Origin: Calothrix sp. NIES-4105
Lineage (GTDB): Bacteria > Cyanobacteriota > Cyanobacteriia > Cyanobacteriales > Nostocaceae
Assembly (NCBI RefSeq): GCF_002368415.1
Contig: NZ_AP018290.1
Location: 7,803,717 to 7,867,716 of the forward strand
Reading direction: 5' to 3'
DNA length: 64,000 bases
Made by a program: the position numbers and the translations under genes. Shown in pieces: positions 3,507 through 11,700 of this stretch; positions within the stretch are counted from its first letter, which is position 1; every line of letters starts with the position of its first letter. The notes beneath the pieces were generated by a model. The model had not been told where the DNA came from, searched no databases, and saw only the letters and a list, made by a program, of their open reading frames with translations.

Positions 3507-5144
3507 ATGGATTGGATTACCGTACTGCGATGGCTTCAATCTGATTTTATTAACAGGTTATCATCTGGTTCACTGCTGCACTGTGAGAACTCTGGACAGC
3601 ATAGCGAGTTGACGGTCATTTCTGGAACTCGATTAAATTCACTGCGGAATTTTTGCTGGAGAATGGCTGAGAAGTATAAACGAGTGTCTCCAGTTCGTGA
3701 TGTTTTTATCAGTTATTTAAAAGGTAAGTTGGGTGAAGAACTTGTCAAGGAGCGACTTGCGGGTTTTATTACCGAGGTTGACTATGAACATCATCTTGGT
3801 GGAGATGGTAATGTTGATTTTACTTTGACTTCTAACCCATTGATTGGTGTTGAAGTTAAATCGCGCTGCGGTAGCTTTGATACAGTTAAGTGGTCGGTTA
3901 CTTCGGAAGAAGTCGCTAAAAATGCTGTTATTGTCTGTGTTTTGATTCAGGAGAAAATTAACGAGGCACAGTCAGAATACAATTTAGTTTTAGCAGGGTT
4001 TTTACCTACTGCGATGATTAAGCTCAAAACTGGGCGAATTTCTTTTGGTATCGAACAGTTGATGTATGGTGGTGGTTTGGTTTGTTATTTGGAACAGTTG
4101 CTGTCTAATGCTTCTAATGCTTCTAATGCTTCCAATGGTTCTAATGGAGCTTCTTATCATGTCAACCGCGATAAGTTACCTGTTTATCAATATATATCGA
4201 GTGGCGAACAGGGTAAGTATGAACACGAATCAGATTCACAGCGTAGTTCCGAACAATTAGTACAATTATATTTACAAAACGGTGATGATAGCTTTCAACG
4301 CGCGAATTATGAAGCGGCAATCATTGCTTATAACGGTGCTTTAAAGTTAGATAGTAATAATCCAGAGATTTATTATAAGATAGCTACGGCAAAGTATCAA
4401 TTTGGTGATTATGAAGGCGCCATTAATGATTGTAAGATCGCGGTAAATATCAACCCTAATTATTTAAAAGCTTATCAGAAAAGCGGATTGGCGCGTTATC
4501 AAATTGGAGATTGTTCAGGCGCCATTGTAGATTTTACCCAAGTTATCCGTATCAATCCACACGATGCGGGTGCATATCTTAACCGTGCTTACGCGCGCTC
4601 ACATCTTGGAGATAATCAAGGCGCCATTGAAGATTACACTTATGCCATCAACTTAAATCCAGATGCTAATATTAACAACAGTGGCTTGCAGCCAGAAATT
4701 CAAATTACACAAATTACAACAGTAGAAGAAACTCCCGATACCCCACAAGAATACATAAATCGTGGAAATTCTCGCTATGAAGTCGGTAACTATCAAGGCG
4801 CAGTCGCCGATTATACTGAAGCAATAGAAATGAATATAAAACTTAATATTTATGATGCAGACGCTTATTTTAACCGAGCAAATGCACTTATTGATTTAGG
4901 AGATAAAACAGGCGCCATCGAAGATTATACTCAAGTTATTAAAATTAATCCTTACGATGCAGAAGCTTATTTTCATCGTGGTAATTTACATCGCGAATTG
5001 GGTGATAAGCTTTTGGCAGTCGAAGATTTAAAGAAGGCAGTAGAGTTATATCACAAAGAAGGTAAGTTAGTTGAATTAAGAAACGCGCGCGAGCGGATAT
5101 TAGATATAGAAATTGAAGAATCTATTGATAATTTAAATTTTTAG
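3507..5144 (+). CDS. PD-(D/E)XK nuclease-like domain fused to tetratricopeptide repeats
   Basis: A 545-residue two-part protein. Residues about 70-170 resemble a restriction-endonuclease fold: KGKLGEELVKERL (helix with Glu), GNVDFTLTSNPLIGVEVKSR with Asp near 103 and an ExK (EVK) near 116-118, the classic D...ExK metal site. A low-complexity linker of Ser-Asn-Ala repeats (about 195-215) leads to at least six TPR units (about 250-390 and 410-525) with the usual YNRANALIDLGDKTGAIEDY-like pattern. The start at 3507 is uncertain because the first 60 residues look poorly conserved; an ATG at about codon 53 (MAEKYKRV) is an alternative. The stop TAG directly joins a dispersed repeat. A protein-guided nuclease, perhaps defence-related, is inference. 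Confidence 0.75.
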   Translation: MDWITVLRWLQSDFINRLSSGSLLHCENSGQHSELTVISGTRLNSLRNFCWRMAEKYKRVSPVRDVFISYLKGKLGEELVKERLAGFITEVDYEHHLGGDGNVDFTLTSNPLIGVEVKSRCGSFDTVKWSVTSEEVAKNAVIVCVLIQEKINEAQSEYNLVLAGFLPTAMIKLKTGRISFGIEQLMYGGGLVCYLEQLLSNASNASNASNGSNGASYHVNRDKLPVYQYISSGEQGKYEHESDSQRSSEQLVQLYLQNGDDSFQRANYEAAIIAYNGALKLDSNNPEIYYKIATAKYQFGDYEGAINDCKIAVNINPNYLKAYQKSGLARYQIGDCSGAIVDFTQVIRINPHDAGAYLNRAYARSHLGDNQGAIEDYTYAINLNPDANINNSGLQPEIQITQITTVEETPDTPQEYINRGNSRYEVGNYQGAVADYTEAIEMNIKLNIYDADAYFNRANALIDLGDKTGAIEDYTQVIKINPYDAEAYFHRGNLHRELGDKLLAVEDLKKAVELYHKEGKLVELRNARERILDIEIEESIDNLNF

Positions 5145-5262
5145 CAACGGATGTAAGAGGATGTTTTAAAAGCTATATTTAATACTCAGTTCTTGGTTTA
5201 ATCCCCTCTGACAGAGCGCGTGTCAGGGGGGAAAAGAGGCATTTAAGCCCCCCTTAATAAGG

Positions 5263-5453
5263 GCTACGGTGTATACACATCTTTAATAAGGCCTTTCTTA
5301 TCTTCCTTTGTGACATGCAGTGACCTTTGTGGTTCCTTAAAGAGATAAACCACGTAATCCGGAGGATTTCCCGTAGGGTAGGCACAAAGGACACAAAGGG
5401 GGGAAAGAAAGAGAAGAAAAGTAACTTTGAGAGACTTGTGTGTACATGGTAGC
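5263..5453. mobile_element. MITE B (copy 1): GCTACGGTGTATACACA ends, TTAATAAGG duplication
   Basis: A 191-bp element. Left end GCTACGGTGTATACACATCT, right end (reverse complement) GCTACCATGTACACACAAGT. It is flanked by a direct repeat TTAATAAGG at 5254-5262 and 5454-5462. It sits in the middle of a CCCCCCTTAATAAGGGG palindrome. A related element with matching ends and a TTATTAAG duplication lies at 44659-44892. No protein of useful length is encoded. Confidence 0.78.
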
Positions 5454-5497
5454 TTAATAAGGGGAGGAAAACAGGCATTTAAGCCCCCCTTAGTAAG

Positions 5498-5709
5498 GGC
5501 AGGGCTGATTCGTTCCCTCTTAAACTGGATTTGTCAAGATGGTTAGCGAGAAAAATCATAAGTATGGGTAACTCTAAAACAGACTTTTTAGCACATAAAT
5601 CTAAGTGTGATTGTCTATTTTAGAGGCGCCTGGGTAGCAAAATGACCAACATAAATTTGCGCGAAACCCTTGATTTTTCAAGCTTCTTAGGGAATGAATC
5701 AGCCCTGCC
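5498..5709. mobile_element. MITE C: GGCAGGGCTGATTC ends, TTAGTAAG duplication
   Basis: A 212-bp element. Its left end reads GGCAGGGCTGATTCGTTCCC and its right end, reverse complemented, GGCAGGGCTGATTCATTCCC. Direct repeats TTAGTAAG lie at 5490-5497 and 5710-5717. Because the target is palindromic, the duplication could be read as 8 to 12 bp with the ends shortened to match. It sits in the second tandem copy of the CCCCCCTTARTAAG target, 45 bp from MITE B. The short duplication and CAGGGC ends would fit an ISAs1/IS4-like transposase in trans, which is inference. Confidence 0.78.
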
Positions 5710-5851
5710 TTAGTAAGGGGGGTTGGGGGGATTTTCTAAGGCTATAGTTAAATTTGATACTTTTCAAACATCCTCTAACGGATAAGTGATATAAAATAAA
5801 TAAAATTTGTTTATACTACTAACTCATCCGTTACATCCGTTGTATCCGTTG

Positions 5852-7570
5852 CTAAATTTCCACTTTTACAGAGGCAGGAGTACCAGGTGTAATAAGTAAC
5901 TTGTATTTACCCAATATTTTGGGGTCAAATGAAATTTTGACAGGTGGACGCAAATGATTATATTTGGTTTTAGAAAGTGGTAGTATAGATTGCACTTTGC
6001 CTGTAAAGGTTTTATCTGTTAAAGATTTAAGTTGAATTTGCACTGACTGTCCCGGTTTGATTTTTTTTAGTTGTTCGTCTTCAAAGTCAGCTGCTATCCA
6101 GAGTTTTTGCGGTACAAGCGACATTAAAGTTTGTCCTGGTTCAACTTTTTGCCCTGTTTGCGCGCGTTTAATATTAATTTGCCCGTTGTTGGGAGCGGTT
6201 ATTTTGGTGTAGTAAAGCTGATACTCTGCGTCTTTTAATTGCCTAGCAGCTTGCGATAGCGCAGTTTGGGCACTTTTCAAGTACAATTGACTTTTTTCGT
6301 AATCTAAAAGTAGTATCTCTGTTTCTGCTAGTCTAGGCACAACTACTGTTTTTTGTTCTGTTAACCGCGCGATAGTTTTGTCTTGCTGTTCCCGTTTTGC
6401 TGCAAATTGTTTTTCTAGCTGTTGTATAGCTTTTTGGTGGTCAGCTTTTAATTTTTCAACTTTTTGGTCGTTCGCTTTTAACTCGTTAGCTTGTAATTTC
6501 TCGGCTTTTAGTTGTTCTGCTTTTAATTTCTCGATTTTTTGCTCGTTCGCTTTCAATTCGTTAGCTTGTAATTTTTTACCGTCTTGCTTAATTTTCTGCT
6601 GTAACTCAGTTTGCGATAACAATCTATTCTTACTGTCTTCCTGCATTTTCTGCTGTAATTTAGTTCGGCTTTCTAGTATTTTTTTACTATCTAACTCCAT
6701 TTTCTGCTGTAATTTTGCTTGTGCTTCTTGAGAATTTTTACGAGCTTCTTCTATTTTCTGTTGCGCTAGCTTTATTTGCCCATCAAGATAATTTTGCTGT
6801 GCTGTTGTTAACTTGGTTCGTGCAAGTTTGACTTGGGCTGTTGAGGAGTTGTACTGTTTAAATAAATCGTCATATTTGGTTTTAGTGTCTTGAAGCGTTT
6901 TTATGGGTATAAAACCCAATGAATGAAGCTTGACAAAACGCTCGTAATCAACAGAAGCTTTAGCAAAAGCTGGAAAAATGCGTTTTAACTCAGATAATCG
7001 TGTTTTGGCTTCTAAACGTGCCGCAACTACTGCCGGGTCATTCTGACCGCTTATTTCTACTTTCGGTTGATTTTTAATTTTAGCTTTTGCTGTATCACGG
7101 TCTGTTGCAGCTTTTTTAACTTGCTGTTGAGCTTGTTCTAGAATTGTTGTAGCTCTTTTAACTTTAGCTTGATATTGTGAGGGGTTGAGTTTGACTAAAA
7201 CAGAACCTTTTTTGACAACCTGATTTTCATTTGCGCTTACGCTTACCACTTGACCGGGAATCTTAGAATTTACGGCATATGTATCAGTCGTGACATAAGC
7301 TTTATCAGTAACTTCGTGAGTTCGAGCATATTGCCACCTTAGTACCCCTGTAGTACTAGTGGCGATGGCGGCAGTACACAGTAAACTCATTAGTAGTATC
7401 TTACGTGAAGAAGGCGGTTTTGCTAAAACTTGTAGATAGGATACTTCGTGAGGCTGGACGACAAGTACACCTGGCTCTGCAACAACGATTTCAGAGCTAA
7501 TGGGATTAGAAGTGTTAGCGTTATTACCTGGGTCTGCTTCAACATTACCTAAAGAATTAGAATATTCCAT
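5852..7570 (-). CDS. HlyD/EmrA-type membrane-fusion (periplasmic adaptor) protein with a very long coiled coil
   Basis: A roughly 572-residue adaptor of a drug-efflux or type I secretion pump. After a soluble N-terminus a single membrane segment (about residues 60-80, KILLMSLLCTAAIATSTTGV) is followed by VTDKAYVTTDTYAVNSKIPG and GQVVSVSANENQVVKKGSVL, the first lipoyl half. A long Lys/Gln/Glu-rich hairpin (about 135-440) follows, then KITAPNNGQINIKRAQTGQK, the second lipoyl half, and the beta-barrel GQSVQIQLKSLTDKTFTGKV. The hairpin contains near-identical units built on LQANELKAN and KLKAEQLKAE. I place the start at the ATG at 7570-7568, with AGGT six bases ahead, rather than the GTG at 7576. 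No inner-membrane pump or TolC gene is adjacent. Confidence 0.9.
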   Translation of the reverse strand: MEYSNSLGNVEADPGNNANTSNPISSEIVVAEPGVLVVQPHEVSYLQVLAKPPSSRKILLMSLLCTAAIATSTTGVLRWQYARTHEVTDKAYVTTDTYAVNSKIPGQVVSVSANENQVVKKGSVLVKLNPSQYQAKVKRATTILEQAQQQVKKAATDRDTAKAKIKNQPKVEISGQNDPAVVAARLEAKTRLSELKRIFPAFAKASVDYERFVKLHSLGFIPIKTLQDTKTKYDDLFKQYNSSTAQVKLARTKLTTAQQNYLDGQIKLAQQKIEEARKNSQEAQAKLQQKMELDSKKILESRTKLQQKMQEDSKNRLLSQTELQQKIKQDGKKLQANELKANEQKIEKLKAEQLKAEKLQANELKANDQKVEKLKADHQKAIQQLEKQFAAKREQQDKTIARLTEQKTVVVPRLAETEILLLDYEKSQLYLKSAQTALSQAARQLKDAEYQLYYTKITAPNNGQINIKRAQTGQKVEPGQTLMSLVPQKLWIAADFEDEQLKKIKPGQSVQIQLKSLTDKTFTGKVQSILPLSKTKYNHLRPPVKISFDPKILGKYKLLITPGTPASVKVEI

Positions 7571-8179
7571 TTTCACACCTGATACTACTATTCAAAACGG
7601 AGATTGACTTTAGCCATGAAAGGCCAGTGTGAGCATTTCGAGACGCATTTTAAGCTTTTTTTGACACAAATACACAGTTTACCAGCAATATCACTATTAA
7701 TATCTCTACCAAAAAATGGGTACCTCTTGAATAGAGCAAAAGTCTAATTTAATTTATGCACTCAGAGAAAAATTTTTCTGTACATTTGTTCTATCAAAAA
7801 AAGATTAGCTTTCTAGCTCCAAATAGGTTACTTTTATACGTGGCGATATTTAGACATAAGCCCGCGCGACAAATTCCCTTTAGTGACATCGATTGCGTTT
7901 AGAAATTTAGTACATTTACATTATTTCGCTTGTAAATATTCATTACTCCGGGTCGTACTTTGCTTGCGAGTCAAATGGCGTGCGTATTGCGGTATTCGCT
8001 TTTTGAGTAATGAGTAAAAATTACGCTGCCTACTTAAGTAATGACGCTTGGATTTGGAAAGATTACACTGTGGATAATGGCTAGCTAGAGTTGCTAAAAA
8101 CAACACCCGTATACATGAAATCGAATAGTTAATCCCGTTAAACACTTCTAATTATCGAATCCTATATCAAAAGCTAATT
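7571..8179. other. Divergent intergenic region between the HlyD gene and the adenylate cyclase
   Basis: About 600 bp, AT-rich, between divergent genes, so it should contain both promoters. I could not pick a reliable -35/-10 pair by eye. A 74-codon minus-strand frame at 7921-8145 has no recognisable family features and I do not call it. Confidence 0.4.
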
Positions 8180-11525: not shown

Positions 11526-11700
11526 TAGTAGTCTATGTCATAAGTTTTGGTAGGTTAGTTTGCAACGGATGCAACGGATATAACGGATGATTTATTTGTT
11601 ACAAACAAAGCACAGTAATTTAAAAATTCCCATCCGTTACATCCGTTTATCATCCGTTGCCAATTTTCCTACCTCTCAAATTTAATCACATGAACCACTA
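11526..11700. mobile_element. MITE with TA ends (copy 2), carrying a GCAACGGAT hairpin
   Basis: A 175-bp element with the same ends as 2760-2866. The left end reads GTAGTCTATGTCATAAGTTT; the right end, reverse complemented, reads GTGGTTCATGTGATTAAATT. TA is present at both boundaries. Unlike copy 1, its interior is occupied by a GCAACGGAT-family hairpin (11562-11660). It begins just after the stop codon of the secreted protein. Confidence 0.75.
11562..11660. repeat. GCAACGGAT hairpin repeat (copy 2)
   Basis: Left arm GCAACGGATGCAACGGATAT at 11562 and right arm ATCCGTTACATCCGTTTATC followed by ATCCGTTGC to 11660. The arms are built of a 9-base unit related to GTAACGGAT and are separated by an AT-rich loop. 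It is nested inside the MITE at 11526-11700. Confidence 0.75.

Follow-up and report, generated by a model that had tools for sequence, protein, structure and literature searches.

Three mini-transposons nested between two convergent genes of Calothrix

Small mobile repeats of filamentous cyanobacteria, reportedly described by Elhai et al. in 2008, are said to be found inserted also into other repeats. The elements treated here are like them in being short and mobile and in residing in filamentous cyanobacteria.

That IS elements enter palindromic repeats is already known. Insertion into repetitive extragenic palindromes was reported by Tobes and Pareja (2006; PMC1525189), who describe how the Sinorhizobium meliloti element ISRm22 (IS4 family) enters a palindromic repeat at its axis, with hybrid direct repeats in 3/9 copies and possible recombination between copies as the authors' explanation. 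Classical REPs and REPINs are recognized by an end tetranucleotide of GTAG or CGTC type and by a RAYT transposase. A review of MITEs notes that IS1111 inserts in the palindrome of QMITE2 (PMC10969869), and G/C-rich intrastrand triplex motifs are reported to abound in cyanobacteria, where they have been connected with unstable genomes (PMC4666352).

The locus described here lies in a window (the whole stretch of DNA analysed, 64,000 nt, to which all coordinates refer) from the filamentous cyanobacterium Calothrix. Nested between two genes are A, B and C, three mini-transposons that are unrelated to one another, and the stack is a clear example of known behaviour in which some features are unusual. 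Like ISRm22, element B is of IS4-family type and sits at a palindrome axis; unlike ISRm22, as far as the description in that paper goes, the duplications are 9 bp (B) and 10-12 bp (C-ended elements) rather than 6 bp, an IS4-type and an ISAs1-type lineage with their MITEs use one kind of C-run/G-run hairpin, and some of the target hairpins are borne by an IS5-type MITE; the term "ISAs1" is absent from the main text of PMC1525189. The likeness to IS1111 and QMITE2, as the review presents them, is that a palindrome within a MITE serves as target, whereas the IS family and the palindrome are others, and here the inserted elements are also MITEs, two of them within a single host MITE. Hairpin 3 of A recalls the triplex motifs of PMC4666352 in its succession of C-run, loop, G-run, short gap and G-run, and with stems of 6 and a loop of 7 nt it falls just beyond the 1-6 nt loop limit of the search given there.

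Layout of the locus and order of its layers

The features of the locus are as follows (strand is given for the two genes).
3507..5144, + strand: left convergent gene, TPR-repeat protein
5144..5156: outer ACGGAT hairpin, left part, from the left gene's stop codon; ends in TAA (5154-5156), the first target copy of A
5157..5775: MITE A, IS5-family type, ends GAGGATGTTTTAAAAG / CTTTTCAAACATCCTC, TAA duplication (5154-5156, 5776-5778)
5203..5231: first of A's hairpins (CCCCTCTGACA...TGTCAGGGGGG), with nothing inserted; folding energy -10.8 kcal/mol (z -4.3)
5248..5467: hairpin 2 of A (CCCCCC-TTAATAAGG-...GGGGAGG), loop holds B
5263..5453: MITE B, 191 bp, IS4-family type, ends GCTACGGTGTATACACA / TGTGTGTACATGGTAGC
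5484..5722: hairpin 3 of A (CCCCCC-TTAGTAA-GGGGGG, then TTGGGGGG), loop holds C
about 5500..5707: MITE C, 208 bp, ISAs1-family type, ends CAGGGCTGATTCGTTC / GAATGAATCAGCCCTG
5776..5856: outer ACGGAT hairpin, right part, with the second TAA (5776-5778), into the right gene's stop codon
5852..7576, - strand: right convergent gene, HlyD-family protein

Gene calls in the window agree with the first-pass annotation that the stack is noncoding and lies between convergent genes, and the three layers do peel off as it had claimed, with exact target duplications around A, B and C. That of B is the 9-bp TTAATAAGG at 5254-5262 and 5454-5462, and C is flanked by the 12-bp CCTTAGTAAGGG at 5488-5499 and 5708-5719; since the target is palindromic, the duplication of C can be read as anything from 8 bp (C then being 5498-5709, 212 bp) up to 12 bp (5500-5707). 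The proposed order, from hairpin to A and from A to B and C, stands, while B and C may have arrived in either sequence. B and C do occupy separate copies of what had been called a tandem unit of A, these units being hairpins 2 and 3 of the three tandem C-run/G-run hairpins that A carries. Two points escaped the first reading: B and C land preferentially in C-run/G-run hairpins, and relatives do not share the outer hairpin at this locus. Rfam searched at gathering thresholds gave no match in the whole window, and an RNA gene, which this leaves unsupported, was rejected.

With A removed and the outer flanks joined, the predicted fold has -20.9 kcal/mol (z -7.6). The outer repeat recurs in the window at about 18643 and 34099, where it had been noticed before, and an additional copy lies at about 11562-11660; at the locus itself it is imperfect, having a long loop and arms of unequal make-up, with ACGGAT twice on the left and three times on the right. 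The empty sites that had been suggested as a check were found, the gene pair being without A, B and C in 6/6 same-genus relatives, and the slot of the outer hairpin holds different hairpins, or none, in relatives. A scan of syntenic stretches for other slots in which hairpins had been exchanged yielded a single case and missed the known slot, so that it provides no measure of how frequent such swaps are.

Element families and their candidate parents

All three ends recur in the genome far more often than in the control, with 49 matches for A (27+22, at most 1 mismatch), 237 for B (114+123, at most 2 mismatches) and 28 for C (14+14, at most 2 mismatches), versus 1 (0+1), 1 (1+0) and 2 (1+1) for the control, which was the reversed pattern searched in the same genome. 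The earlier annotation had proposed to look in the genome for full-length IS with the ends of A, B and C; longer elements with these ends and with transposase genes were found in relatives.

The ends of A are 16 bp long, and identical TNA stands on both sides in 11/13 own copies (both ends at most 900 bp apart, at most 3 substitutions) and in 20/24 copies in relatives (read from 24 loci, of which L189 gave none and L222 two). The candidate parent is a 937-bp element of a relative (L197) with ends GAGGGTGTTTGAAAAG / CTTTTCAAACATCCTC, whose transposase scores 127 bits against the IS5-family model NF033580 (cut-off 110); its reading frame of 189 codons versus 258 in the model, together with its unequal flanks TGA and TAA, makes it possibly incomplete. 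The own genome holds one fragment matching PF13340, an IS5-related model. Given terminal inverted repeats, a short fixed duplication and ends common to a transposase-bearing candidate, A may be classed as an IS5-family MITE. Without B and C it measures 199 bp in the window; a copy of 198 bp in the congener G003 (L216) has three hairpins with all loops empty, and aligns over its full length with the A of the window once B and C are excised, at 159/198 identical positions. Two copies have two hairpins with empty loops (L186, L187), and two further copies are without B and C (L061, L062); the three empty-loop copies in G003 do not themselves show identical 3-bp duplications. A copy of 74 bp with no hairpin (L052) could be the ancestral form or a deletion, and the hairpin array may or may not be native to A.

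For B the candidate parents are four 1489-bp elements in the relative G035 (L193-L196), three of which lie in C-run/G-run loops with 9-bp duplications. The L194 transposase scores 389 bits against NF033590 (cut-off 160); the profile was run on L194 alone, and the frames of L193, L195 and L196 are near-identical to it. With ends and duplication length common to an IS4-family element, B may be regarded as a MITE of that family. C likewise shares its ends and duplication with an ISAs1-family element, and may be regarded as an ISAs1-family MITE. Its candidate parents in relatives (L179-L184, 1159-1228 bp) were scanned with NF033564 (cut-off 70) in two cases, both ORF pieces of L181 scoring 121 and 161 bits and the first piece of L184 128; the frames of L179 and L180 are those of L181. 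The ORF is split into two overlapping frames, and activity is for this reason not certain. Of six C-ended elements counted, 4/6 lie in C-run/G-run loops and 5/6 have 10-12-bp duplications; L185 was dropped, as each of its ends is part of a separate short element, and two C-type places of G035 (L210, L211) as well as L188 and L190-L192 are in no count. The DNA of B, of C and of the 74-bp A copy gave no match when compared with plasmids.

Hairpin loops as probable targets and the likely origin of the stack

An insertion was scored as lying at a C-run/G-run hairpin if runs of at least four C and at least four G fell within 24 bp of its two ends. So scored, 30/39 own B copies, 11/13 own C copies and 13/17 B-type elements of G035 sit at such hairpins, versus 0/13 own copies of A. 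Mixed coding and noncoding controls gave 24/20000 random positions and 96/63800 window positions; noncoding controls gave 65/12792 and 212/66721 (0.3-0.5%), three to four times higher, and relative to these the frequency of B and C at hairpins is raised by a factor of about 150 or more. The 39 own B copies (both ends within 400 bp, at most 2 substitutions per end) come from loci retrieved out of the 237 end matches, about 30 of the loci searched having been picked by similarity to the window's B and others by end pattern, and are thus not a random sample; the 13 own C copies have both ends at most 400 bp apart with at most 3 substitutions, and the 17 elements of G035 come from 16 loci chosen since both ends were listed. 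Some of the copies that failed (9/39 own B, 2/13 own C, 4/17 in G035) did so narrowly, by run length, and 13/30 hairpin-sited B copies are without a duplication of at least 7 bases. Most copies, not all, occupy a fixed position in a repeated palindrome, and from these insertion-site statistics we infer that the transposases of B and C select the palindrome.

The locus is very probably a stack of non-autonomous insertions that arose in at least three steps, with B and C targeting the hairpin loops of A. The short gap between the convergent genes would first have been filled by an ACGGAT hairpin, of which the window has several copies, a step deduced from the absence of this hairpin from relatives at the slot. 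The IS5-type MITE A, with its three C-run/G-run hairpins, then inserted at TAA in the ACGGAT repeat, and the IS4-type B and ISAs1-type C each entered the loop of an A hairpin, their transposases apparently choosing short C/G palindromes at the centre and duplicating the loop. The latter two steps are shown by the duplications, by other copies with and without inserts, and by relatives without them.

It might be argued that a safe intergenic gap simply gathered unrelated MITEs with no preference for one another as targets, and the noncoding site between convergent genes and the indifference of A to hairpins (0/13) would fit this. The roughly 150-fold or greater excess of B and C at hairpins over noncoding controls makes it very improbable, and with B and C so enriched in loops we rejected chance: the nesting follows from target choice, apparently since B and C enter the tips of small hairpins and A carries such hairpins. 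Two further A copies hold B (L003, L047) and one holds C (L050) in the same kind of hairpin, which speaks against chance. The same copies are in favour of A, B and C being a single composite element that moves together. Such a composite is scarcely credible: A occurs without B and C at L216, L186, L187, L062 and L061; in the set examined 2/39 own B and 2/13 own C are enclosed by a paired A copy; the genome has 237 matches to B ends and 49 to those of A; and B and C have duplications and transposase families of their own. It was rejected, A occurring without the other two, and B and C mostly lying outside A in this set.

What the transposases of B and C recognize is more evenly balanced. They may read symmetric bases, a C-run, an 8-12-bp staggered cut and a G-run, in the way conceivable for a dimer, so that the loop of a hairpin would be incidental, and we hold the chances of this to be about equal either way. 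Among the 32 B sites whose duplication measures 8-9 bp, positions -5, -3 and -1 are almost always C and positions +1, +3 and +5 almost always G, and the duplicated loops vary, with 28 different sequences, many of them variants of CTTANTAAG, as this reading would have it. The five flanking bases on each side pair in 28 to 30/32 of these sites, and position 4 pairs in 28 versus 17.2 expected from independent columns, which favours a hairpin; the T-A pairs at that position, however, are all 9 in G035 (pairing there in 13/13 sites), and these sites may belong to one repeat family. In the own genome both sites with T at -4 have G opposite at +4, so that pairing is not restored there.

Mixed loops and what the stack may mean

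Eight B copies and three C copies have differing loop types on their two sides, each beside its C- or G-run, the status of one B copy (L006) being less clear, and this suggests recombination between copies. That unlike loops instead reflect insertion without duplication, or decay, is unlikely: missing duplications have several known causes, as set out in PMC11708052, yet one hairpin entered once would not end up with a different loop type on each side. For one mixed-loop B copy (L030) the right flank was found in 6/6 relatives and the left flank had weak matches elsewhere only; in the 300 bp beside the right flank, three of these six places (L236, L239, L240) had no B and no C-run/G-run hairpin. 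The window genome and its relatives show poor conservation of gene order, with about 13 kb shared at the A/B/C locus, and the result for L030 is therefore compatible with rearrangement or local conversion.

Rather doubtful, if conceivable, is a broader reading in which the IS4 and ISAs1 families would have converged on one landing pad, recognizing the structure of an extruded or triplex-forming C/G hairpin rather than its base sequence, while the IS5-type MITE would spread the pads and seed sites for both, and recombination among occupied pads would reshuffle the genome.

Targeting of hairpin loops by B and C offers a reason for the nesting of MITEs in these cyanobacteria, in which hairpin repeats would be landing pads, some of them spread by one MITE family. 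As transposases of two families share one kind of target, they make a natural comparison for the recognition of DNA structure versus symmetric sequence, and the mixed loops around some copies may preserve a legible trace of how repeats recombined in genomes with a fast-changing gene order.

A nested locus between convergent genes

The window occupies positions 7803717-7867716 of contig C1 in a genome of 12.04 Mb, and the locus lies, as the first-pass annotation had described, between two convergent genes, for a TPR protein and an HlyD-family protein. That its nested layers can be separated exactly is borne out by flanking duplications at each of the three MITEs, of which A (IS5-type) sits inside the outer ACGGAT hairpin repeat, and B (IS4-type) and C (ISAs1-type) sit inside A.

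Features of the locus (window coordinates)
3507-5144, + strand: TPR-protein gene, left side of the stretch
5157-5775: MITE A, TAA flanking each side
5263-5453: MITE B, TTAATAAGG flanking each side
MITE C, inside A: CCTTAGTAAGGG bordering each end
5852-7576, - strand: HlyD-family gene, right side, converging with the TPR-protein gene

The target at C is palindromic, so that its duplication has a length of between 8 and 12 bp depending on the reading; other C copies with a duplication have 9 to 12 bp. The ends of A, B and C recur in the same genome, as had been expected, with 49, 237 and 28 matches to the respective patterns versus 1, 1 and 2 for reversed control patterns, and by this comparison each end type is a genuine family.

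Without B and C, A measures 199 bp and consists of three tandem hairpins (C-run, loop, G-run), B occupying the loop of the second and C that of the third. The congener G003 carries a 198-bp A copy of the same plan (L216), identical to the window's A at 159/198 aligned positions and with every loop empty, as well as two 161-bp copies (L186, L187) with two hairpins each and empty loops. These copies are the direct evidence that B and C arrived after A, the order first read from the window; their own 3-bp duplications are non-identical. Calothrix sp. NIES-4105 itself has A copies with one hairpin (L062) or none (L052, which may be an ancestral form or a deletion product), two with B inside (L003, L047) and one with a C-type element in its hairpin (L050). 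By eye, the interior of this C-type element has CTTTGTG / CACAAAG stretches resembling the core of MITE B, and C-type ends may here enclose B-like sequence. Other A copies in relatives are, by eye, markedly unlike in their interior; L216 aside, the loci L215-L234 (19/20 from G003) have the A ends in common and mostly a TNA target, their interior being unlike the hairpin array. A single set of A ends may be able to move cargo of more than one type.

The flanking genes are adjacent in all six same-genus relatives searched, 11 to 75 bp apart, and the empty sites that the annotation had proposed to look for are there: A, B and C are each lacking from the slot between the two stop codons in 6/6. 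The window's ACGGAT outer hairpin is likewise absent from these six slots. Because they hold other hairpins, of GTTGGGT type (G002, G006) or AGCACT type (G003, G004, G005), or none (G001), the ACGGAT hairpin of the window is a late arrival or a replacement. Slot hairpins (window 5144-5852; orthologs L132-L137) span nearly stop codon to stop codon, and their families differ between species in one slot, as if swapped. The second ACGGAT hairpin of the window (about 11562-11660) was not seen in the four relatives with a readable orthologous gap; the gap in G002 holds an unrelated palindrome.

Hairpin loops as insertion sites

Copies with both ends in the loci examined (39 B, 13 C, 13 A) were counted as lying in a hairpin loop where the 24 bp to their left contain four or more consecutive C and the 24 bp to their right four or more consecutive G. 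Such a loop surrounds 30/39 B copies, 11/13 C copies and 0/13 A copies; it was found at 24/20000 random positions of the same loci and 96/63800 window positions, and, among noncoding positions, at 65/12792 in the window and 212/66721 in the loci. B and C favour hairpin loops, with an enrichment of about 150-fold or more over noncoding positions. Thirteen of 17 B-type elements in G035, a genome from another genus, also lie in such loops.

A duplication of 8 or 9 bp is present at 32 B sites (19 from the window's genome, 13 from G035). Between the five bases on one side of the duplicated loop and the five on the other, pairing is seen in 28 to 30 of these; at position 4 it occurs in 28/32 versus 17.2 expected were the columns independent. 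All nine T-A pairs at this position come from G035, and the two sites with T there in the window's genome have G opposite. The duplicated loops are diverse (28 sequences among the 32 sites), many being variants of CTTANTAAG. The insertion site is palindromic, and the transposase may read either structure or symmetric sequence.

Loop types differ between left and right in eight B copies (L004, L025, L030, L038, L081, L083, L085, L115), with a less clear ninth (L006), and in three C copies (L105, L109, L128); four B sites combine a left loop TTCCACGC with a right loop CTTATTAA and have different outer flanks. The simplest account of the mixed loops would be recombination between a pair of occupied hairpins, whether close together or distant; Tobes and Pareja (PMC1525189) likewise suggest recombination for 3/9 copies of ISRm22.

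Candidate parent elements

The annotation had pointed to full-length elements with these ends as the source of the transposases, and a search of the relatives' genomes with the A, B and C end patterns recovered elements with transposases for all three. B ends bound 1489-bp elements in G035 (L193-L196) with an IS4-family transposase (NF033590, 389 bits, scanned in L194); three of the four have 9-bp duplications, and the same three lie in C/G hairpin loops. At L196 a 160-bp B-type element adjoins the 1489-bp element, whose left and right flanks differ. Elements of 1159-1228 bp with C ends occur in G002, G004, G005 and G018 (L179-L184), 5/6 with 10-12-bp duplications and 4/6 in C/G hairpin loops; in these copies two overlapping frames encode the ISAs1-family transposase (NF033564, as scanned in L181 and L184), an arrangement that may reflect programmed frameshifting or shared decay. 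A ends bound a 937-bp element of G018 (L197) with an IS5-family transposase (NF033580, 127 bits), and decayed IS5-type remnants adjoin A ends in the window's genome.

Earlier reports and the order of nesting

Insertion of IS into repeated palindromes, sometimes at the axis, is established (PMC1525189) and includes an IS4-family case, ISRm22; an IS sitting in the palindrome of a MITE is already described (PMC10969869). G/C-rich intrastrand triplex motifs are reported as abundant in cyanobacteria (PMC4666352), and the C/G hairpins resemble these in sequence. With C removed, hairpin 3 and its tail (window 5484-5730) read C6-N7-G6-N2-G6, near such a motif. Among titles and the beginnings of abstracts, we recognised no report of ISAs1-family elements or MITEs with such a target in cyanobacteria. 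We claim no priority for this target preference. The most relevant earlier work is probably that of Elhai et al. (2008).

Stepwise insertion with target choice is the best account of the nesting: the hairpin would have been present first, A would have inserted after it, and B and C would then have entered the loops of A's hairpins by choice of target.
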